Source of the DNA: Saccharospirillaceae bacterium
GTDB lineage: Bacteria; Pseudomonadota; Gammaproteobacteria; Pseudomonadales; Oceanobacteraceae
DNA: 64,000 nucleotides
Assembly (NCBI GenBank): GCA_021208685.1
Contig: JAJOJJ010000016.1
Coordinates: 124,001-188,000, forward strand
Reading direction: 5' to 3'
Part shown: positions 38,000 through 49,511 of the stretch, one piece after another
Position numbering within the stretch: the stretch's first letter is position 1
Layout of the letters: each line of letters opens with the position of its first letter
Program-made: the position numbers and the translations under genes
The notes under the pieces: model-generated
The model's database searches: none
What the model was told of the DNA's origin: nothing
What the model saw: only the letters and a program-made list of their open reading frames with translations

Positions 38000-38407
38000 A
38001 TGCTGGTTCGTCTCGTCTACTACTCCGTCGCCACGCGCGATATGTCTTTATTGGATATTCAGAGCATTCTGGAAGTCGCGCGTGCGCACAACCGCAGTAT
38101 CAGTGTGTGTGGCATGCTGTGTTACGAACAGAAATACTTTCTGCAGGTCCTTGAAGGTGACCGGGAGGATGTTAATGAGCTCTATCTGGAAATCGCCGAT
38201 GATCCGCGTCACGATCAGGTTGTCATCATCAGTTACGATGCTATAACTGCGCCCTTTTTTCCCGACTGGAATATGGGATTTGCCCCGGCATCCGATCACT
38301 TTTATCGATTATTAAATGAGCTTGGCAAGAACGAATTTCTGCCACAGGAATTTACTGCAGAACAGGCCTTATCGTTTTTGAAAGGTCTGTCAGATTACCA
38401 GCAATGA
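38000..38407 (+). CDS. BLUF-domain blue-light photoreceptor
   Basis: MLVRLVYYSVATRDM...NRSISVCGMLCYEQKYFLQVLEGDREDVNELYLEIADDPRHDQVVIISYDAI...PFFPDWNMGF. Confidence 0.93.
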   Translation: MLVRLVYYSVATRDMSLLDIQSILEVARAHNRSISVCGMLCYEQKYFLQVLEGDREDVNELYLEIADDPRHDQVVIISYDAITAPFFPDWNMGFAPASDHFYRLLNELGKNEFLPQEFTAEQALSFLKGLSDYQQ

Positions 38408-38518
38408 GTGGCCTGAACAGGCTGATTGATGTCGCGGCTTTACACCCATTAACCCGTGCTGCACCGATCTGCCGAAAGGGTTTGGCCGTGCCTGTCGGGT
38501 TAATTCTCAACCCTGAAA

Positions 38519-38551
38519 AACGGCCATTAAACACCCCTGAACAATGGCCGC
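38519..38551. terminator. Terminator between BLUF gene and tatC
   Basis: CGGCCATT...AATGGCCG hairpin followed by CTCTTATTTT. Confidence 0.55.
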
Positions 38552-38576
38552 TCTTATTTTCAATGAAACCAGACGA

Positions 38577-39326
38577 TCAGCTTCCCTGAGTTTTCTCTTC
38601 GCCATCTTCCAGCGGCTTTTTAATCAGCCGCGAGGCCAGTACGCCGGCTTCAAACAGCAGCCACATCGGTACGGCCAGAATGGTCTGGGAAATCACATCC
38701 GGAGGTGTGACCAGCATGCCGACAACAAAACAGCCGACAAAAATATAAGGGCGCTTTTCTGTCAGGGCAGCAACGGTGGTAATGCCGCTGAGTACCATCA
38801 GAAAAGTCGCAATCGGTATCTCAAAGGCGATGCCAAAGGCAAAAAAGATTTTAAGAATAAAATCGAGAATATTGCTGATGTCCGGCATAAAGGAAATGCC
38901 TTCTGGTCCGGCGGCGGTAAAAAAACCGAACGCCAGCGGCAACACGACAAAATAGGCAAAGGCGATGCCGGTGTAAAACAGGATAACGCTGGAGACCAGT
39001 AACGGGATGCCGAATTTCTTTTCGTGCTGATACAAACCGGGAGAAATAAAACTCCATACCTGATGCAGCAGAAAAGGCACCGCCAGTAATACGGCGAGCA
39101 CCAGTGTCAGTTTAAACGGCACCAGAAAAGGCGAGGCAACGCCGGTAGCAATCATATTGCCGCTGTCGGGCAGTAATACGGACAGCGGTTTGACCAGAAT
39201 CAGGTACAGGTCGTTGGCAAAGTAAAACATGCCAAGAAACAGCACCAATACCACCAGTACCGATTTCAGCAAACGGTTGCGCAGTTCGATCAGGTGGGCA
39301 ATCAGGGGTTGTTCATGATCGGTCAT
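38577..39326 (-). CDS. tatC: Sec-independent translocase TatC
   Basis: LIAHLIELRNRLLKSVLVVLVLF, six TM helices. Confidence 0.97.
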   Translation of the reverse strand: MTDHEQPLIAHLIELRNRLLKSVLVVLVLFLGMFYFANDLYLILVKPLSVLLPDSGNMIATGVASPFLVPFKLTLVLAVLLAVPFLLHQVWSFISPGLYQHEKKFGIPLLVSSVILFYTGIAFAYFVVLPLAFGFFTAAGPEGISFMPDISNILDFILKIFFAFGIAFEIPIATFLMVLSGITTVAALTEKRPYIFVGCFVVGMLVTPPDVISQTILAVPMWLLFEAGVLASRLIKKPLEDGEEKTQGS

Positions 39327-39691
39327 GATGACGCATCGGTATTATCGGGTTTGATATGAGTAGCAGGCTGTTGCGGACCCGGCTGTTGCGGAAGAACAGT
39401 GCCTGCAGGTTTATTGTCCGTCAGTGTTTCTGCTTTGGGGCTGGGCTGAATGCTGTTAGCCGATGGCGAATCGTCATCGAGAAACGTGGCATAGGGGTCT
39501 TTCAGCTTTTCACGTAATTCTTCGGTGCGGACCTGGCGCTCAAGATCATCCTGGATATTGCTCATGGTGCGGCGCATACGGCCAAGAAACAGGCCAACCG
39601 TACGCGCTGCTTTCGGCAAGCGTTCCGGGCCGAGCACCAGCAGGCCCAGAATGGCTACCACCATTAATTCCAGAAAACCGATATCAAACAT
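39323..39691 (-). CDS. tatB: TatB
   Basis: [33 protein letters not shown]. Confidence 0.96.
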   Translation of the reverse strand: MFDIGFLELMVVAILGLLVLGPERLPKAARTVGLFLGRMRRTMSNIQDDLERQVRTEELREKLKDPYATFLDDDSPSANSIQPSPKAETLTDNKPAGTVLPQQPGPQQPATHIKPDNTDASS

Positions 39692-39951
39692 CAGATTTTA
39701 TCTTGGTCTTTGCTGGTGCTTTTGAATTCGGCGTCTTTCTGCACGCCTTCTTTATGTTCCAGCGTTTTGGCCGGTTCTTTACTCTCGTCTTCGTCGGCTT
39801 TTGCGCTGCCATCTTCATTAACGGCTTTTTTGAAGTTTTTGATCGCACCGCCCAGATCACCGCCCAGGTTGCGTAGTTTCTTGGTGCCGAAAATCATAAT
39901 AACGATGGCCAGAACGATTAATAATTGCCAGATACTGATTCCGCCGAGCAT
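39691..39951 (-). CDS. tatA: TatA
   Basis: [39 protein letters not shown]. Confidence 0.96.
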
Positions 39952-39986
39952 AGGAAAATCCTCTTATTCTTAAATTAAAAATGACA

Positions 39987-40325
39987 TCAGAAGCCGGGCA
40001 GCTGATCGCCGCCCAGAATATGAAAGTGCATATGAAAAACTTCCTGCCCACCTTCTTTACCGGTATTGGTAATGGTGCGGAAGCCAGCCAGATTCTGAGT
40101 ACGGGCAATGACCGGCAGGCTGAGCATTAAATGGCTCATCAGGCTGGCGTCAGCGTCGCTCAGATCATTCAGGTTGACGATATGGCGCTTGGGAATAACC
40201 AGCAGGTGGGTATCCGCTTTGGGCGCAATATCGTGAAACGCCAGCAGCTGCTCATCTTCATAAACAACCCTGGCCGGAATTTTTCCGGCGACGATCTGGC
40301 AAAACAGACAGTCCGGCATACTCAA
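39987..40325 (-). CDS. HIT family nucleotide hydrolase (HinT-like)
   Basis: CLFCQIVAGKIPARVVYED, HMHFHILGG HIT motif. Confidence 0.94.
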   Translation of the reverse strand: MSMPDCLFCQIVAGKIPARVVYEDEQLLAFHDIAPKADTHLLVIPKRHIVNLNDLSDADASLMSHLMLSLPVIARTQNLAGFRTITNTGKEGGQEVFHMHFHILGGDQLPGF

Positions 40326-40352
40326 TCTCTCAGTTCTCTGGTCTGTACCGGT

Positions 40353-40685
40353 TTACTTGGGCGTACGGGACGCCTTTTCTTCCAGGCCGGACATATTAAA
40401 ACGCCGTGCCAGTTCGTTAATAACCGCTTCCGGGCGCTCGCCCAGCTTGGCCAGCGCGACCAGCGTGTGAAACCACAGGTCGGCGGTTTCGTAGATAACA
40501 TTGCTGTTATCGCCACTGGTTTCGGCGTCTTTGGCGGCCAGAATGGTTTCGGTGGCTTCTTCGCCGACCTTCTCCAGAATCTTGTTCAGACCCTTGTGAT
40601 ACAGACTGGCCACATACGATGAATCGGCGGCCGCTTTTTTACGCTCTTCAAGGATATCGCCGAGGGCGGAGAGTATATCGCTCAT
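40353..40685 (-). CDS. hisE: Phosphoribosyl-ATP diphosphatase
   Basis: [42 protein letters not shown]. Confidence 0.95.
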
Positions 40686-40711
40686 AGCTGTTTCAGTTTC
40701 ATTAAGTGGCA

Positions 40712-41092
40712 TCAATAAATATCTTTCGGGTCTTTTAACACCGGATCAACGCTGACCCATTCGCCATTCTGATAAACCCGGTAGAAGCAGCTTTCGCGGC
40801 CGGTATGACAGGCGATACCGCCAATCTGTTCCACCTGCAGGGTGATGACATCGGCGTCACAGTCGAGGCGCACTTCGTGCAGCTGCTGCACGTGGCCGGA
40901 CGACTCGCCTTTGCGCCACAGTTGCTGGCGCGAGCGGGAATAGTAGATGGCGCGGTTTTCCTGCACGGTCAGCGCCAGTGCTTCCCGGTTCATCCAGGCC
41001 ATCATCAGGATACGGCCGGTCTGATAATCCTGCGCAATGGCTGGTACCAGGCCATCGGCGTCCCACTTTACGGCATCAAGCCAGTTACTCAT
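40712..41092 (-). CDS. hisI: Phosphoribosyl-AMP cyclohydrolase
   Basis: [27 protein letters not shown]...[18 protein letters not shown]...[27 protein letters not shown]. Confidence 0.96.
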
Positions 41093-41257
41093 AACATCCC
41101 CCGCGTTCAGAGGTCGCAGGATACCCCATGGCCGGGATTTCGGGTAGGGCTTCACGGCCGGTGAGCATGCGCACCAGAACAACGCCGGGGCTATGGGTTG
41201 GCGCGTCTTTATAGTGCTGACGGCTTTATCGTTAATGATGGGCGCTAACAGGACGTA

Positions 41258-41276
41258 ACAATTCTGATCAGATTGT
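41258..41276. promoter_or_regulatory. Near-palindromic site upstream of the amine dehydrogenase operon
   Basis: ACAAT-TCTGATCAGA-TTGT with perfect TCTGATCAGA core. Confidence 0.3.
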
Positions 41277-41388
41277 CAGCATTCGCCTCTTGAAGTATGC
41301 ATTTCCGGTTATGTTTTGCCGCCGCGTTCAGGCATTGGCATGGGCGCTGCTCTTCACTCCTGCAGACTCACAACGAGAGCTGCAAACC

Positions 41389-42588
41389 ATGACGTTAACC
41401 AAGCAAAAAAGTAAAACCAGAAACCTGTCCCGCCGCGTATTCACTCCGGCACCGCTGGCGGCCTGTATGACAACCCTGCTGTTGTCGGCGGTGATGCCGG
41501 TGGCGCAGGCAGAGCCCTTTAAGCCGGAAGTTTTTACGGTCGAGAAAACCATTCAGCCCGGGCCGAATGTGTTTATGAACGAAGCTGCCTGGGGGGGCGC
41601 CAGCCAGATTCACGTCTTCGCTCAGGATGACCTGCACTATAAAGGCTCGATGCCGGCGGGGATTACCTCGCAGATGAAAGTCTCGAAAGACGGTAAAACC
41701 GTTTACGTGCTGTCCGACTTTGCCAAACGCATAACCTATGGCCCGGTGGAAAGCGTGGTTCAGGTGTACGACGTAGACACCCTGAGCCGTAAGAAAGAAA
41801 TCATCGTGCCTAATAAAGCCGTAAAAGCCATTGGCATGACCCAGCTGCTGGAGTTAAGCGCCGACGAAAAATTGCTGTATGTGCAGAATGCCACGCCGGC
41901 CACCTCGGTTTCGGTCATTGATATTGCCGCCGGTGAAGTGATTACAGAAGTGCCAACTCCGGGATGTTACGGCGTTTACCCGGCCCTGAAAGGCACCAGT
42001 TTCAGCACGCCTTGCGGCACCGGCCAGCTGAAAACCTTCACGGTAAAGGGCAAGGAATACAGCGTTGAGGCATCGGGCAAATTATTCGATGTGGATGCCG
42101 ACCCGATTTATATCCACAGCGAACGCCGTAAAAACGGTGAGCTGATCCTGACCACCTTCGGCGGTGCGCTTTACCTCGCTGATGACAGCGGCAAAACCGT
42201 CAAAATCAAAGAAAAACTGCAGGTGAATGCGGGTATCGAAGGCGATTGGGCTCCGGGTGGTTATGCCATTACGGCCTACAGCGCCACACTGGATATGGTG
42301 TTTATGCTGATGCATTCAGGCGCTTATGACGGCAGCCATAAAAACGGCTCTGAGGAAATCTGGGCCTACAGTCTGAAGAATAAAAAACTCATCAGCCGTT
42401 CTCCGGCGCCGCATATGGTGGCACTGAGTGTGACTGAGGGTAAAACCCCGGTGCTGTTCGGCGCCAATGAAGAAGACGAAACCCTCGACAAGTACGTGCT
42501 GAGCAGCGCGGGCGACTTTATGTTTGAGAAGGCGGCTTCCGACGAGAAATCCGGTTGGACCACCTCGCTGGCGGTGTCTCATGACTGA
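41389..42588 (+). CDS. aauB: Amine dehydrogenase heavy (large) subunit, beta-propeller
   Basis: Signal peptide; VFMNEAAWGGASQIHVFAQDDLHYKGSMPAG; IHSERRKNGELILTTFGG; linked to mauE/D/A homologues. Confidence 0.87.
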   Translation: MTLTKQKSKTRNLSRRVFTPAPLAACMTTLLLSAVMPVAQAEPFKPEVFTVEKTIQPGPNVFMNEAAWGGASQIHVFAQDDLHYKGSMPAGITSQMKVSKDGKTVYVLSDFAKRITYGPVESVVQVYDVDTLSRKKEIIVPNKAVKAIGMTQLLELSADEKLLYVQNATPATSVSVIDIAAGEVITEVPTPGCYGVYPALKGTSFSTPCGTGQLKTFTVKGKEYSVEASGKLFDVDADPIYIHSERRKNGELILTTFGGALYLADDSGKTVKIKEKLQVNAGIEGDWAPGGYAITAYSATLDMVFMLMHSGAYDGSHKNGSEEIWAYSLKNKKLISRSPAPHMVALSVTEGKTPVLFGANEEDETLDKYVLSSAGDFMFEKAASDEKSGWTTSLAVSHD

Positions 42589-43126
42589 GTTACTGCCACT
42601 GGCGAGCCTCACGCTGCTGGTCTTTACCTTGCTGGTATTTCTGCGCGCAGCGCTGCACAAAGCACTGGATTTCCTCGAATTCCAGGGGTTTGTCGCCGAC
42701 TACGATCTGCTGCCGGAAGCTTTGGTTAAGCCCGTGGCCGCTGCCTTGCTGGCGCTCGAAGGCGCACTGGTGCTGATGCTGTTATTCAGCGCCAGCCGTG
42801 CTGCCGGACTGGTGCTGGCGGCGCTGTTGCTGGGCGGCTATGCCATTGCCATGGGCATCAATATCCGTCGCGGTCATACCCGCATCGAGTGCGGCTGTGG
42901 TGGTACTCCGCAACGGCTGGGCAAAACCCTGCTGCTGCGTAATGCGCTGCTGATGGTCTTCGCTCTGCTGCCATTGCTCGGTCTGCCGGAAGCACTGCAA
43001 AGCGCCGAAGTGGTGGTGGCCATCGCTGCTGCTGTTTTTATGTGGCTGGTTTTCCTGTTGTTTGAGCAGGTGAACGCCAACCTGCTGGCCATCCGTGAAA
43101 TGGCCAACTCACTGAAACGAATTTAA
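42581..43126 (+). CDS. aauE: MauE-family membrane protein
   Basis: Multiple TM helices; RAALHKALDFLEFQGFVADYDLLPEALV...RRGHTRIECGCGG. Confidence 0.87.
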   Translation: MTELLPLASLTLLVFTLLVFLRAALHKALDFLEFQGFVADYDLLPEALVKPVAAALLALEGALVLMLLFSASRAAGLVLAALLLGGYAIAMGINIRRGHTRIECGCGGTPQRLGKTLLLRNALLMVFALLPLLGLPEALQSAEVVVAIAAAVFMWLVFLLFEQVNANLLAIREMANSLKRI

Positions 43127-43135
43127 GAGGTCGTT

Positions 43136-43723
43136 ATGACTGCTGTGTATTTTGCTGTCGCATTTTTATTTGTAGCCGTTATCGCGCTGGCCCTCGCCTT
43201 TTTTGTGCTGGCCCGCCAGATCGGCGTGTTGTTTGAACGTATCGCGCCGATGGGTGCGCTGATGAATGACTCCGGGCCGAAAGTCGGTGATTTAACCCCG
43301 GCCTTTACCCTTAACAGCCTGACCGGTGGCGCGGTGCATATTGGCCGCGATAAAGAAAAAGCCATGTTGGTATTTTTCCTGTCGCCGACCTGTCCGGTAT
43401 GTAAAAAACTGCTGCCGATTCTGCGCTCGGTAAAAGCCAGTGAGAAAGACTGGCTGGATGTGGTGCTGGCTTCCGATGGCGAAGAAGAAAAACACCAGCG
43501 CTTTATTCAGCACGTCGGTCTGCAGGATTTTCCATACGTGCTGTCGACCGAACTGGGGCTGGGCTACCGCGTATCGCGCCTGCCGTTTGCGGTGCTGATG
43601 GATAAGCAGGGCGTGATCCGCTCGAAAGGTCTGATCAACAGCCGCGAGCAGCTTGAGAGTCTGTTCAATGCCATGGAAATGGGTGTTGGCTCGGTACAGA
43701 GTTTTCTTGAGCAGCATTCCTGA
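43136..43723 (+). CDS. aauD: MauD-family thioredoxin-like protein
   Basis: N-terminal TM, LVFFLSPTCPVCKKLLPILRS CxxC. Confidence 0.9.
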   Translation: MTAVYFAVAFLFVAVIALALAFFVLARQIGVLFERIAPMGALMNDSGPKVGDLTPAFTLNSLTGGAVHIGRDKEKAMLVFFLSPTCPVCKKLLPILRSVKASEKDWLDVVLASDGEEEKHQRFIQHVGLQDFPYVLSTELGLGYRVSRLPFAVLMDKQGVIRSKGLINSREQLESLFNAMEMGVGSVQSFLEQHS

Positions 43724-43796
43724 ACAAGCCACTCCTGAGCAAACCACTCCTGAGCATCACTCAGTAGGCAACGATTTTTAGGCAACAAGAGAAATA

Positions 43797-44354
43797 ATGA
43801 TGAAACGATTTTTCGACAGCGTATTAACCGGCCTGGATAAAGGCACCGAACATTTAACCCGCAAAGTCGCACAGCGCAGCAGTCGCCGCAGTTTCTTAAG
43901 CCGCGCCGGGATGCTGATGCTGGGCAGCGCCATGCTGCCGGTGCTGCCCTTTGACCGTAATGCCGGCAAGGCCTGGGCGGGAGACGCGGAAGACGAAGCC
44001 CCGGCCGATCCGAATGATCCGACCGCCTGTGAATACTGGCGCTACTGCGCGCTGGACGGCAACCTGTGCAACGACTGTGGCGGCACATTAACCAGCTGTC
44101 CACCGGGTTCCGAAGCGTCCAAAGTCTCCTGGGTCGGCACCTGCCGTAACCCGAACGACGATAAAGACTATCTGGTGTCGTACAACGATTGCTGCGGCAA
44201 AGTGGAGTGCAACGGCACCTTCTGCTTTACCAGCGAACGGGAGCGTCCGGGCTACCGCATGGGGCTGCATAACGACATTAACTGGTGTATGGCCAATGCG
44301 TCGCAGGGTTATCACTGCACCGTCGCTGTGCTGGTTGGTATGGCAGACGCCTGA
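43797..44354 (+). CDS. aauA: Amine dehydrogenase light (small) subunit, TTQ precursor
   Basis: Twin-Arg signal SSRRSFLSRAGMLMLG; Cys-rich body CEYWRYCALDGNLCNDCGG...VSWVGTCRNP...INWCMANASQGYHCTVAV with the two candidate TTQ tryptophans. Confidence 0.9.
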   Translation: MMKRFFDSVLTGLDKGTEHLTRKVAQRSSRRSFLSRAGMLMLGSAMLPVLPFDRNAGKAWAGDAEDEAPADPNDPTACEYWRYCALDGNLCNDCGGTLTSCPPGSEASKVSWVGTCRNPNDDKDYLVSYNDCCGKVECNGTFCFTSERERPGYRMGLHNDINWCMANASQGYHCTVAVLVGMADA

Positions 44355-44367
44355 GGCGGGAGCTGAG

Positions 44368-44841
44368 ATGATGGTTTTGAAAACATTCACCTTATCTCTG
44401 CTCACGGTTTCAGCACTGGGAGCCGCGCTGGCGGCTCCGGTGTCTGCTGCCGGAGCAACTGAGAATAATGGCGAAGCACTGTTTAATCAGCGTTGTGCGG
44501 CCTGTCACCAGCCGGGTGGCATTGGCACGCCGGGGCTGGCACCGCCGCTGGTGAACAGCCTGCTGTGGCCAGCACTGGCGGAACAGGCTCCGGCGTATTT
44601 CTGGGGCGTATTAAATAACGGTTTGTCCGGCACCATCGAAGTGGACGGCATCGGTTATTACGGTCTGGTGATGCCGGCGCAGGCGGATTTAACCGCCGAA
44701 CAGATGAAAGCGCTGGCCGCCTATGTGCTGGGCGATCTTAACGGTCTGAATGCCGTGCTGAGTGACGAAGTGCTGGAACAGGCCCGCAGCACGCCACAGT
44801 CTCACAGCCAGCTGCGCGGAGTACGGAAAAATGCACAATAA
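44368..44841 (+). CDS. Mono-haem c-type cytochrome
   Basis: Signal peptide, CAACH, MPAQADLTAEQMKALAAYVLGDL. Confidence 0.88.
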   Translation: MMVLKTFTLSLLTVSALGAALAAPVSAAGATENNGEALFNQRCAACHQPGGIGTPGLAPPLVNSLLWPALAEQAPAYFWGVLNNGLSGTIEVDGIGYYGLVMPAQADLTAEQMKALAAYVLGDLNGLNAVLSDEVLEQARSTPQSHSQLRGVRKNAQ

Positions 44842-45370
44842 AAAATTCGCGCCAATGCGCGTGAAACCGCTTAATGGCTGGTTATTGCGCGGCAGCCTGC
44901 TGTTGGCACTGTCCGCCGGATTGAGCGGTTATGTTCAGGCGACGGATGCTGTTACGCCGATAAAACCAGCGCCGGCACCGCAGGGTGAACTCAGCCCTCA
45001 GGCCAACTATGTGCTGCGTTGTCTGGGCTGCCATCGACCGGATGGCGCAGGTTCTCCGGCGGGCGGTATTCCCGATTTTAATCATTACGTTGCCTCATTT
45101 GCCGAAACCGAACGCGGCCGTGAATACCTGATGCACGTACCCGGCGTGGTGGGGGCCAGTCTGAGTGATAATGAAATTGCCGAGGTGATGAACTACATCA
45201 TGCAGCGTTGGGGCGGGACTTCCCTGCGGGCCAATTTCCAGCCGTTCAGCGCGGAAGAAGTGGCCAGGCTGAGGCAAACGGACGTCGGCGATGTGGTGAA
45301 ATACCGCCGTATTGTGGTGGCGGAACTGCAGGCGATGGGCTTGCCGGTCGCGGATTATCCCTGGCCTTAA
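44831..45370 (+). CDS. Mono-haem c-type cytochrome
   Basis: Signal peptide, CLGCH; SDNEIAEVMNYIMQRWGG. Confidence 0.87.
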   Translation: MHNKKFAPMRVKPLNGWLLRGSLLLALSAGLSGYVQATDAVTPIKPAPAPQGELSPQANYVLRCLGCHRPDGAGSPAGGIPDFNHYVASFAETERGREYLMHVPGVVGASLSDNEIAEVMNYIMQRWGGTSLRANFQPFSAEEVARLRQTDVGDVVKYRRIVVAELQAMGLPVADYPWP

Positions 45371-45405
45371 TTCCTGATCTTAATTTTTGCCTTTAATTTC
45401 TGATC
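45367..45405. repeat. Three degenerate 13-bp tandem repeats
   Basis: TTAATTCCTGATC / TTAATTTTTGCCT / TTAATTTCTGATC at exact 13-bp phase, first overlapping the cytochrome stop codon. Confidence 0.6.
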
Positions 45406-45418
45406 GGCAGCACCATTG

Positions 45419-45462
45419 GCATTGTAAGACCTGCGGTATATTGCACCACCGTCTTACAATGC
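45419..45462. promoter_or_regulatory. 12-bp perfect inverted repeat upstream of PLP enzyme gene
   Basis: GCATTGTAAGAC (45419-45430) and GTCTTACAATGC (45451-45462), 20-bp spacer, 21 bp upstream of the start codon. Confidence 0.6.
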
Positions 45463-45483
45463 ACTTTTGGCCGGAGTCTGCTG

Positions 45484-46524
45484 GTGTCTTTATCTCCCTT
45501 ATTCAAAGCTTATCCTGCGTTGCAGAAGCTCATTCCGCTGGCGGATATTCCCGGCCAGCAGATTCCGACACCTGTTACTCATAGCCTCGATACGCCGCAA
45601 CTCTGGCTTAAACACGATGATTTAACCAATGCGGTTTATGGCGGTAATAAAAGCCGCAAGCTGGCGTTTATTTTCGGCAAAATGCGGGCAGAAGGAAAAA
45701 CCCGCCTGCTGACTTTTGGCGGCACCGGCACCAATCACGGTGTGGCCTGTGCGGTGCACAGTAAAGCGCTGGGCATGGATTGCGAGATTCTTCTGTTCGA
45801 TCAGCCGGATAGTCCGTCCGTCAGAAAAAACCGGCAGGTGATGCAGCACCATGACGCGACCCTCCGTTATTGCGGCAGCCTGCTGAATACCGTGCTGCGT
45901 TTTTATACTCTGCAGATCCGTGACCGGCTATTACACCGCAAGCAGACCGAATATGTATTTGCCGGTGGCTCGTCGCTGCAGGGCGTGATTGCCTTTATTG
46001 ATGCTGCGTTTGAATTACGTGAGCAGATTGAGCGGGGCGAATGCCCTGTGCCTGAAACCATTATCTGCCCGGTGGGTTCCAGTGCGACCTTAGCCGGTCT
46101 GACGTTGGGCGTGGCACTTGCCGGTCTGTCATCGCGGGTTGTGGGTGTGCGCGTGGCGCCTGCGTATCTTGGCCCCTTTCCCGCCTGCACTGTGGCGACG
46201 GTGAAACAATTAATGCAGCAGACACACCATTATTTGCTGCGTTTGCAGGGCGGAGTTCCGCCATCCAACATTCCGCCACCGGTGCTGCTCGACCAGTATT
46301 ATGGCGAGGGTTATGGCGTTGCCTCGGCGGCCGGTGAGCAGGCGGAGCAATGGTTCCGTAAGCAGCGCTGGGCCGATGGTTTAACTGTGCAGTCTGAATG
46401 CACCTACACCGCTAAAGCGCTGGCGGCCTTGCGTGATGAACTGGCAACGGCCAATGGCCCGGTGTTGTACTGGCATACACTGAATTCGGTGCAGGGGATT
46501 TATAGCGAAGCGGAAGCGGTTTAA
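45484..46524 (+). CDS. PLP-dependent ACC deaminase/D-cysteine desulfhydrase family enzyme
   Basis: LWLKHDDLTNAVYGGNKSRKLAFIFG (PLP lysine), FGGTGTNHGVACA; GTG start. Confidence 0.88.
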   Translation: MSLSPLFKAYPALQKLIPLADIPGQQIPTPVTHSLDTPQLWLKHDDLTNAVYGGNKSRKLAFIFGKMRAEGKTRLLTFGGTGTNHGVACAVHSKALGMDCEILLFDQPDSPSVRKNRQVMQHHDATLRYCGSLLNTVLRFYTLQIRDRLLHRKQTEYVFAGGSSLQGVIAFIDAAFELREQIERGECPVPETIICPVGSSATLAGLTLGVALAGLSSRVVGVRVAPAYLGPFPACTVATVKQLMQQTHHYLLRLQGGVPPSNIPPPVLLDQYYGEGYGVASAAGEQAEQWFRKQRWADGLTVQSECTYTAKALAALRDELATANGPVLYWHTLNSVQGIYSEAEAV

Positions 46525-46612
46525 TGCGTGCACCTTGATCACGGCTGAAAGCCGTTCCCACTCAAATCCGGCACTCACGCACAGCCTTGGAACGGGCCAT
46601 GATTTTTCACAG

Positions 46613-46645
46613 ATAAAAAAGCCGCAGAATTTGCGGCTTTTTTAT
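46613..46645. terminator. Bidirectional intrinsic terminator
   Basis: ATAAAAAAGCCGCA-GAATT-TGCGGCTTTTTTAT. Confidence 0.85.
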
Positions 46646-46671
46646 GGTTCGGTGTGCTGGCTTGCTACTTC

Positions 46672-47940
46672 TCAGCCAAACACTTTCCGGCCATCAATAA
46701 ACACGGCGTTAACCGCGCCTTTTAAGGTCTTGCCAGCCACCGGGCTGTTACGCCCTTTGGACAGCAGCGTCGAGCGGCGGAAGCTTTGTCCGGCGTCTGG
46801 GTTGATCAGTGCAGCATTAAACCAGTTGCCTTCGCTCAGTGACTGATTCTGCCCAAGCACGGTTGCAGGCAGTGTGCTGGTGGCGCGGATCAGAGCCGCT
46901 AATTCGAGCTCGCCGCGTTCAACCAGTTGCAGCGCCAGAGGCAGGAAGCCATCAAAAATGCTCATGCCCGGCTCGGCATCGGCAAAAGGCGCTTTCTTGG
47001 CGGCCACTTCGTGCGGACGATGGTTGGAACTGATGGCCAGTTCACCGGCGTTAACGGCGGCGAGCAAGGCCCGACGGTCGCTTTCGCTGCGCAACGGTGG
47101 CTGCACATTGAACTGGCTGTTGTAACCGGTAACGGCTTCGTCGGTATAAATCAGGTTGGCCAGCGGCGTATCGGCGCTGACGCGGATGCCCTGCTCGCGG
47201 GCCTGCGCCAGCATGCGCACACTGCGTGCACAGCTGATCTGGCTGATGTGGGCGCGTACGCCGGTCTGCTCAATCAGCAGCAGCATTTGCGCCAGAGCGA
47301 TGGTCTCGGCGGTTTGCGGAATACCGGTCAGGCCCAGACGGGTGGCGGTCGGACCTTCGTGCATACAGCCCGCGTCTGATAGCGCGGCGTCATCGGGGTT
47401 CAGGAAGACCGGTATATCGTAAGTCGCGGCGTATTCCATCACCCGGCGCAGCACGTAACTGTCTTTAAACGGTGCGCGGGCGTTGCTCAGCGCCACACAA
47501 CCGGCTTCACGCAGGCTGAACATGGAGGCCAGTTGCTCACCGCCAAGGCCCTGAGTCAGTGCGCCCAGTGGCAGTACTTTGGCAAAGCCGGCTTTGGCGG
47601 CTTTTTCCTGAATTAACTGAATCACCGCCGGGCTGTCGGCCACCGGTTTGGTGTCCGGCAGTGCGCAGACATGGGTAAAACCACTGGCGCAGGCGGCGCG
47701 CGTTTCACTGGCGATGGAGCCTTTATGGGTAAAGCCCGGCTCAGCCAGATGTGCGCCAAGATCGATCAGACCGGGAACCAGTAACAGGCCGCTGGCGTCG
47801 ATACTGTGTTCAATACCGCCGGTCGCTGGTTTGTGGCCAATGGCGTGGATGCGTCCTTCGGCGATGTAAACATCGGTGACCTGATCGAGATTCTGTGACG
47901 GGTCGATCAGGCGGGCGTTTTCAATGTGCAGGTATCTCAT
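46672..47940 (-). CDS. Dihydroorotase-like protein, predicted non-catalytic (PyrC'/PyrX type)
   Basis: Amidohydrolase fold; PGLIDLGAHLAEPG in place of PGLID(M/P)HVHLREPG; adjacent to pyrB. Confidence 0.9.
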   Translation of the reverse strand: MRYLHIENARLIDPSQNLDQVTDVYIAEGRIHAIGHKPATGGIEHSIDASGLLLVPGLIDLGAHLAEPGFTHKGSIASETRAACASGFTHVCALPDTKPVADSPAVIQLIQEKAAKAGFAKVLPLGALTQGLGGEQLASMFSLREAGCVALSNARAPFKDSYVLRRVMEYAATYDIPVFLNPDDAALSDAGCMHEGPTATRLGLTGIPQTAETIALAQMLLLIEQTGVRAHISQISCARSVRMLAQAREQGIRVSADTPLANLIYTDEAVTGYNSQFNVQPPLRSESDRRALLAAVNAGELAISSNHRPHEVAAKKAPFADAEPGMSIFDGFLPLALQLVERGELELAALIRATSTLPATVLGQNQSLSEGNWFNAALINPDAGQSFRRSTLLSKGRNSPVAGKTLKGAVNAVFIDGRKVFG

Positions 47941-47942
47941 GT

Positions 47943-48977
47943 TTATGCCTCCTCCTGACCGGGTTCGTTGTGTTGCTCGGCGAGTTCGTTACGCTCCTGC
48001 TGCTGACCACTCATGGCCATCGCCATGACCGCCATGCGCACGGCGATACCGTAGCTGACCTGATTGAGGATCACCGATTGCGGGCCGTCGGCGACATTGG
48101 ATTCAATCTCGACGCCGCGGTTAATCGGCCCCGGATGCATCACAATGGCATCGGGTTTGGCGTAGGTCAGCTTTTCTTCGGTCAGGCCGTAGAGTTTGAA
48201 AAATTCGCTTTCGCTTGGCAGCAGGGCGTTTTGCATACGCTCTTTTTGCAGACGCAGCATGATGATCACATCGCAGTCTTTCAGGCCGTCTTCCATGCGG
48301 TAGTAGGCTTTGCAGCCCAGTGCTTCGATATCGCGCGGCAGCAGGGTGCCGGGGCCGATCACGCGGATTTCGGCAGCACCTAAGGTACGCAGCGCATGAA
48401 TCTGTGAGCGGGCAACGCGGGAATGCAGGATATCGCCGACGATGGCGACGATTTTGCCTTCAATCGCACCCTGATGGCGGCGGATGGTGAGCATATCCAG
48501 CATGGCCTGGGTCGGATGCGCGTGGCGGCCGTCACCGGCGTTGATGATGGCAACGTTGGGGGTGACGTGTTCGGCAATAAAGTGGGCGGCACCGGAATCG
48601 GCATGGCGCACGACGAACATATCGGAATACATGGCCTCGAGATTCCACAGCGTATCCATCAGGGTTTCGCCCTTGGCGGTCGCGGATTTGGCAATGTCGA
48701 GGTTAAGAATATCGGCTGACAGGCGCTTGGCGGCCAGCTCGAAGGTTGAACGTGTTCGGGTACTGTTCTCGAAGAACAGGTTGACCACGGTTTTACCGCG
48801 CAGCAGCGGGACTTTTTTCACGTCCCGCTCCTGAGTGCTGATAAACGAATCGGCGGTGTCGAGAATCTCGGTCAGGAGTTCACGGCTCAGGCCCTCGGTG
48901 GTGAGGAAGTGCTTCAGACGCCCGTCGGCGGTCAGCTGCAGCTGGCTTGGGTCTGTGGTCATGGCGTTGCTACTCAC
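47943..48977 (-). CDS. pyrB: Aspartate carbamoyltransferase catalytic chain
   Basis: [45 protein letters not shown]. Confidence 0.97.
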
Positions 48978-49016
48978 AAAGTTTCAGTCATTCGGGCTGG
49001 GGTTTAAGCTGAAATT

Positions 49017-49511
49017 TCAGGACAGGCTCAGTTCTAACGGCACCGGGCCGCTCAGTTTTACCAGCTGTCCTTCTTCCAGCTCCAGCCGGACACCGCACAG
49101 GTCTGGCTGGATAGGGAGTTCGCGGCGGCCAATATCCAGCAAACAGACCAGGCTGATGCTGGCCGGGCGGCCATAATCGAACAGTTCGTTCATGGCGGCG
49201 CGGATGGTGCGGCCGCTCATTACGACGTCGTCGATCAGAATAATATGGCGGTCTTCGATGCTGTCCGGCAGCTCGGAGCCTTTGACCTGAGGGTGCAGGC
49301 CGTGGCGGGTAAAGTCGTCACGGTAAAAGCTGATGTCGAGGGAGCTGACGCCATCTTCCGTCTGCAATTGTTGCTGCAGGCGTTCGGCAATCCACACGCC
49401 ACCCGTGCGGATGCCAACCAGCAGTGGCTGTTCAATGTTGTTCTGCTCCAGATAAGCCGCCAGGCGCTGGCCCAGCTCGGTGCAGGTGTGTTCGATATCG
49501 GGCAAATGCAT
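49017..49511 (-). CDS. pyrR: PyrR bifunctional regulator/uracil phosphoribosyltransferase
   Basis: LVGIRTGGVWIAERL, HIILIDDVVMSGRTIRAAMNELFDYGRPASI. Confidence 0.95.
   Translation of the reverse strand: MHLPDIEHTCTELGQRLAAYLEQNNIEQPLLVGIRTGGVWIAERLQQQLQTEDGVSSLDISFYRDDFTRHGLHPQVKGSELPDSIEDRHIILIDDVVMSGRTIRAAMNELFDYGRPASISLVCLLDIGRRELPIQPDLCGVRLELEEGQLVKLSGPVPLELSLS

Follow-up and report, generated by a model that had tools for sequence, protein, structure and literature searches.

In the methylamine dehydrogenase (MADH) of Paracoccus denitrificans, the di-haem enzyme MauG is needed to complete the tryptophan tryptophylquinone (TTQ) cofactor. MauG drives the six-electron oxidation that turns a mono-hydroxylated tryptophan pair into TTQ (PMC6405878; PMC7876137), and outside the MauG family other tryptophylquinones are made by the flavoproteins QhpG, LodB and GoxB (PMC7876137). 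Here, we describe a cluster for an aromatic amine dehydrogenase (AADH) at 41389-45370 on the + strand of a 64,000-nucleotide stretch of a Thalassolituus-like Saccharospirillaceae genome (contig JAJOJJ010000016.1, positions 124,001 to 188,000; hereafter the window), made up of six open reading frames (ORFs) in the order aauB, aauE, aauD, aauA, C1 and C2, of which the last two encode mono-haem c-type cytochromes. The aau cluster of Alcaligenes faecalis, described by Chistoserdov in 2001, reportedly has no analogues of mauF, mauG, mauL, mauM or mauN and is said to be followed by a gene for a mono-haem cytochrome; a 2005 paper is likewise said to have produced active AADH in P. denitrificans, a host with its own MauG, from aauBEDA and orf-2. 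Were that orf-2 a C1, the outcome would point to the MauG of the host. In view of the 2001 description, finding no mauG in an aau cluster is nothing new, and to our knowledge the question of how AADH gains TTQ without it has been open since the cluster was described. What is new here is that AADH is found in genomes free of the MauG family, that C2 is linked nearly one-to-one with the AADH-type light chain, and that C2 has lost its distal haem ligand. On balance, we lean towards the view that C2 matures TTQ in AADH.

The locus can be set beside two well-described relatives. With the A. faecalis aau cluster, whose AADH supplies the closest solved structures, it shares the heavy chain, MauE, MauD and the TTQ light chain, and differs in the two cytochrome genes that follow and in its neighbours, hisIE/tatABC and a pyridoxal phosphate (PLP) enzyme. 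With the mau cluster of P. denitrificans it shares homologous heavy and light chains, MauE, MauD and both TTQ tryptophans; mau clusters, however, encode MauF, MauJ, MauG, the ferredoxin-type MauM and MauN and mostly amicyanin but no C2, whereas aau clusters encode C2 and none of these. QhpG, LodB and GoxB offer a looser parallel, as post-translational makers of tryptophylquinones outside the MauG family, but they are flavin enzymes for cysteine tryptophylquinone (CTQ), and none is conserved at AADH loci. The maturase function of C2 is what we infer; without it, the locus is an ordinary member of the known aau kind.

The association between C2 and AADH is close in every sample. Clustering of ORFs around 73 non-redundant AADH loci, with the family of an AraC-type regulator (found near 37 of the 73) and opposite-strand shadow ORFs set aside, left B, A, D, E and C2 as the only near-universal families, followed by C1. 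No flavoprotein or other conserved neighbour emerged around these loci beyond these six and the regulator, and on that ground we reject a conserved flavoprotein neighbour as the maker of TTQ. Among 80 loci fetched with AauA, 79 lie on contigs that reach far enough to be informative for C2, and in 75 of the 79 it stands directly after aauA or after C1, a degree of conservation equal to that of the catalytic subunits. In 370 gammaproteobacterial genomes sampled blind to AADH, a TTQ light chain occurs in ten and C2 (127-200 bits) in exactly those ten, the next best match scoring 46 bits; were the two independent, the chance of this ten-for-ten match would be about 1e-19, a figure that reflects linkage and not a number of independent events, since genes of one operon are inherited together. 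Further loci from a phylum sample and from a sample of one alphaproteobacterial family have C2 at nearly all. Literature searches returned no paper on the C2 cytochrome.

Plasmids show the same division between C2 and MauG. All 15 AADH-type records carry C2 with no MauG adjoining, and all 15 MADH-type records, our positive control, carry MauG in the cluster and no C2; MauF and MauJ accompany MauG in all six that were read. The AADH-type record from Sphaerotilus is degenerate. In a light-chain tree, MauG users fall together in a single clade with a long branch and C2 users make up the remainder, so the split between MauG and C2 may have been a single old event. C2-like matches of 29-31% identity on plasmids of Rhizobium and of Thioclava are cytochromes that lie beside a GMC oxidoreductase or among other cytochrome genes, and we set them aside as not linked to AADH. 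Three loci for TTQ dehydrogenases occur in one genome (G153). Two of them (L119 on C112 and L120 on C92) are bare heavy-light pairs without E, D or a cytochrome, while the third has C2; the bare pairs may depend on the third locus for their maturation. Some Azospirillum plasmids encode proteins that share 54-56% identity with the MauG of P. denitrificans, and these plasmids yielded no TTQ light chain.

The usual escape from the absence of mauG in aau clusters is a MauG encoded elsewhere in the genome, and the comparative data remove it. We assembled 98 distinct AADH-bearing genomes (50, 28 and 21 from the samples plus the host genome, minus two counted twice), and 25 of the 98 have no CCP_MauG match. 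These include Vibrio furnissii, Yersinia massiliensis, Buttiauxella brennerae, three Chimaeribacter, two Pleomorphomonas, Salinisphaera orenii and Thiomicrorhabdus. Since draft genomes may miss genes, the two closed genomes among them weigh most (G466 and G568, each a single contig and 100% complete). The related DHOR family (PF06537) is likewise missing from 17 of the 25, which leads us to reject it as a stand-in for MauG. Given the 25 genomes, a MauG-type enzyme looks unnecessary as a general requirement for AADH, on the assumption that the AADHs concerned are active, as their intact catalytic residues make likely. Salinisphaera orenii and Thiomicrorhabdus add to the argument: their clusters consist of B-E-D-A-C2 only and their genomes encode neither CCP_MauG nor DHOR proteins, so that C2 is the sole haem protein tied to the enzyme.

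The sequence of C2 (44834-45370; haem motif CLGCH) sets it apart from both MauG and typical electron carriers. Against curated families it has only weak cytochrome c matches, and with one CxxCH and no CCP_MauG match it does not belong to the MauG family, whose members have two haems, the second ligated by tyrosine. An AlphaFold model built with 40 sequences reaches a mean pLDDT of 87.7, with values above 90 from about residue 51, and its best fold matches are 1qyz, 1dt1 and 1c52, all cytochrome c552 of Thermus, the T. thermophilus protein being also the best sequence match (~32% identity). C2 differs from c552 in missing the loop that carries Met69, which we take to be the haem ligand: in the phmmer alignment six residues of C2 face 24 of c552 at this loop, and both flanks match. 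Across 76 aligned sequences (75 orthologues and that of the window), CxxCH is invariant in 76/76, the loop region has 15 residues in every one, and no Met, His, Lys, Cys or Tyr position within it is conserved above ~0.6. Because the ligand loop is deleted and no conserved substitute is found, the C2 haem is predicted to be open, either five-coordinate or water-ligated.

C1 (44365-44841; CAACH; PF13442/PF00034), whose reading frame overlaps that of C2 by 8 bases, presents a different picture. Its Met ligand, M103, is invariant in 64/64 sequences and aligns with that of c552, and the gene is present in 63 of the 80 loci and absent from 17. It is a probable Met-ligated electron acceptor or carrier, dispensable to the system, and for these same reasons, Met ligation and absence from 17 loci, we reject it as the TTQ maturase. 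With C1 and C2 so separated, one small candidate protein is left. The initial annotation of this DNA, made from its letters alone, had offered two options, that TTQ arises by another route or that one of the cytochromes takes part; the comparative data favour this, with the correction that the two cytochromes are not interchangeable, C1 being Met-ligated and dispensable and C2 near-universal and without a distal ligand.

These observations of gene content, conservation, co-occurrence, ligand-loop loss and MauG absence suggest a model for AADH maturation in which we infer an open haem site, peroxide chemistry and an action of C2 on AauA. AauA would be exported by the twin-arginine translocation (Tat) route, AauB and AauA would together form the enzyme, and AauE and AauD would form its disulfides. 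In the periplasm, Trp112 and Trp163 of AauA would then be converted to TTQ without MauG: the open haem of C2 would react with peroxide or O2 to give a ferryl state, and ferryl C2 would draw electrons from the tryptophan pair of AauA, taking the role that di-haem MauG plays on pre-MADH. Once the enzyme is complete, C1 would carry its electrons on to the respiratory chain, a task that other carriers, azurin for example, might take over. We extend this proposal more tentatively, at a little short of even confidence, to the C2 family as a whole, mono-haem c cytochromes that have lost the distal ligand: it would then be the TTQ synthase of AADHs, independent of MauG and of separate origin from the di-haem route. 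Should C2 prove to be the maturase, turning a tryptophan pair into TTQ would need no di-haem enzyme, and one would know the minimal genes required to make AADH in a laboratory host.

Several points weigh against assigning this role to C2. With its single haem it cannot form the bis-Fe(IV) state of MauG, and most of its invariant residues (R96, E142 and R158) are shared with c552 and may be structural. The main counter-evidence comes from Sulfuritalea, four genomes of which have an aauBEDA-C1 type cluster and C2 nowhere in the genome; the contigs run on past C1 without it, and in one of them (L080) the gene after C1 encodes a DUF1329-like protein, by similarity to a neighbour in L075. Sulfuritalea has twin CCP_MauG proteins, which in two genomes lie within ~6 kb upstream of aauB: an 866-887-residue protein with two CCP_MauG domains, and so four haems, is encoded at 1587-4250 in L080 and from 1528 onwards in L084. 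A similar CCP_MauG cassette also occurs in some relatives that keep C2. Either the twin protein may stand in for C2 in Sulfuritalea, or the wide spread of C2 may overstate how much it is needed. Finally, tight linkage to AADH is also compatible with C2 being a partner dedicated to electron transfer or to assembly.

An electron-transfer role is the chief rival to the maturase proposal. C2 would then be a dedicated, if unusual, acceptor for AADH or a relay with C1, while TTQ would arise by O2-dependent self-processing or through a house-keeping periplasmic oxidant. Tight linkage suits such a partner equally well, and the c552-like fold of C2 and its position as the only linked haem protein in loci without C1 also speak for it. 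A cytochrome that has lost its Met-ligand loop without gaining a conserved alternative would nevertheless be an unusual electron carrier, C1 with its normal ligand set already suits the carrier role in 63 of the 80 loci, and the homologous MADH of P. denitrificans does not complete TTQ without MauG; we consider this explanation unlikely, though deserving of serious weight. An assembly role, in which C2 would be a non-catalytic subunit or chaperone and an unlinked flavoprotein or other enzyme would make TTQ, would account for one-to-one co-occurrence too, and it has a precedent in the flavoproteins QhpG, LodB and GoxB (PMC7876137). It sits poorly, however, with the invariance of CxxCH across the C2 alignment and with the gene content around the 73 clustered loci, where nothing is conserved beyond the aau genes, the two cytochromes and, at about half, the regulator, and we regard it as improbable.

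Slightly more doubtful still, in our judgement, is the possibility that TTQ in the host is completed by an unlinked CCP_MauG protein. The genome encodes four such di-haem proteins, all on other contigs, and the likeliest candidate is a lipoprotein encoded on contig C30 that is 47% identical, along an alignment of 376 residues, to the MauG of P. denitrificans and keeps the ligand at the Tyr294 position; the abundance of CCP_MauG proteins in C2-less Sulfuritalea also speaks for such a route. Yet His and Thr occupy the positions of Trp93 and Trp199, so that of the Tyr294 ligand, Trp93, Trp199 and mau linkage the protein has only the tyrosine, although Trp199 is also missing from the mau-linked MauG of Methylobacterium and is not decisive by itself. 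In the region 8625-16646 of L140, on that contig, the gene is accompanied by a pair of imelysin genes, one for a di-haem protein of the DHOR family and one for a DUF1513 protein, and by no mau genes, which gives the group the look of a metal-uptake cluster. Of the 370 genomes of the class, 57 encode homologues, and most of these have no AADH; of the ten genomes with AADH, five lack a homologue. The patchy homologues, the imelysin context and the two tryptophan replacements lead us to reject a hidden MauG in the host as a general answer. The initial annotation had named a MauG gene elsewhere in the genome and required for activity as the finding that would overturn its suggestion; relatives are indeed present, one of them with 47% identity, but a general requirement for such a protein is disfavoured by the 25 AADH genomes that have none. 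Its statement that the window cluster contains no MauG-like protein holds, and none of the ORFs at 38000-49500 encodes mauF, mauG or mauJ.

The remaining genes identify the locus as a regular aauBEDA operon with two haem proteins added, and the heavy subunit, MauE, MauD, twin-Arg light chain and CAACH and CLGCH cytochromes read from the letters at the outset are borne out, in that order, by Pfam and NCBIfam matches for the six ORFs. The aauB gene (41389-42588) encodes the beta-propeller heavy subunit (PF06433, 81.6 bits); aauE (42575-43126) a MauE-type membrane redox protein, a disulfide or export helper (PF07291, 93.6 bits); aauD (43136-43723) a MauD thioredoxin-like protein (NCBIfam equivalog TIGR02661, 196.3 bits against a cut-off of 188.6); and aauA (43797-44354) the TTQ light subunit (PF02975, 183.3 bits), with the twin-Arg motif SRRSFLSR in its leader. 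The tryptophans that would form TTQ, W112 and W163, and the catalytic aspartate D131 are conserved in every TTQ light chain compared, and the nearest named relative found, Thalassolituus alkanivorans, has an AauA 99% identical to that of the window. The MADH equivalogs fall below their cut-offs, for the light chain (TIGR02659) at 177.5 against 196.85 and for the heavy chain (TIGR02658) at 87 against 454. Among solved structures, the top matches are those of A. faecalis AADH, 2agl for the light chain (2agl_D, E 5e-48) and 2h3x and 2agl for the heavy chain (E ~1e-44, where MADH chains reach 6e-18 or weaker). On these profile and structure matches, the locus is assigned to aromatic amine dehydrogenase, a type defined by the oxidation of phenethylamine, tyramine and dopamine in place of methylamine, and not to MADH, and the B-E-D-A gene order expected of the aau type is present.

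Two neighbours flank the operon. The genes tatC, tatB and tatA lie at 38577-39951 on the - strand, ~1.4 kb upstream, and although AauA has a twin-Arg leader, their proximity is probably coincidental synteny. Downstream, on the same strand as the cluster, 45484-46524 encodes a PLP enzyme of the D-cysteine desulfhydrase/1-aminocyclopropane-1-carboxylate (ACC) deaminase type.

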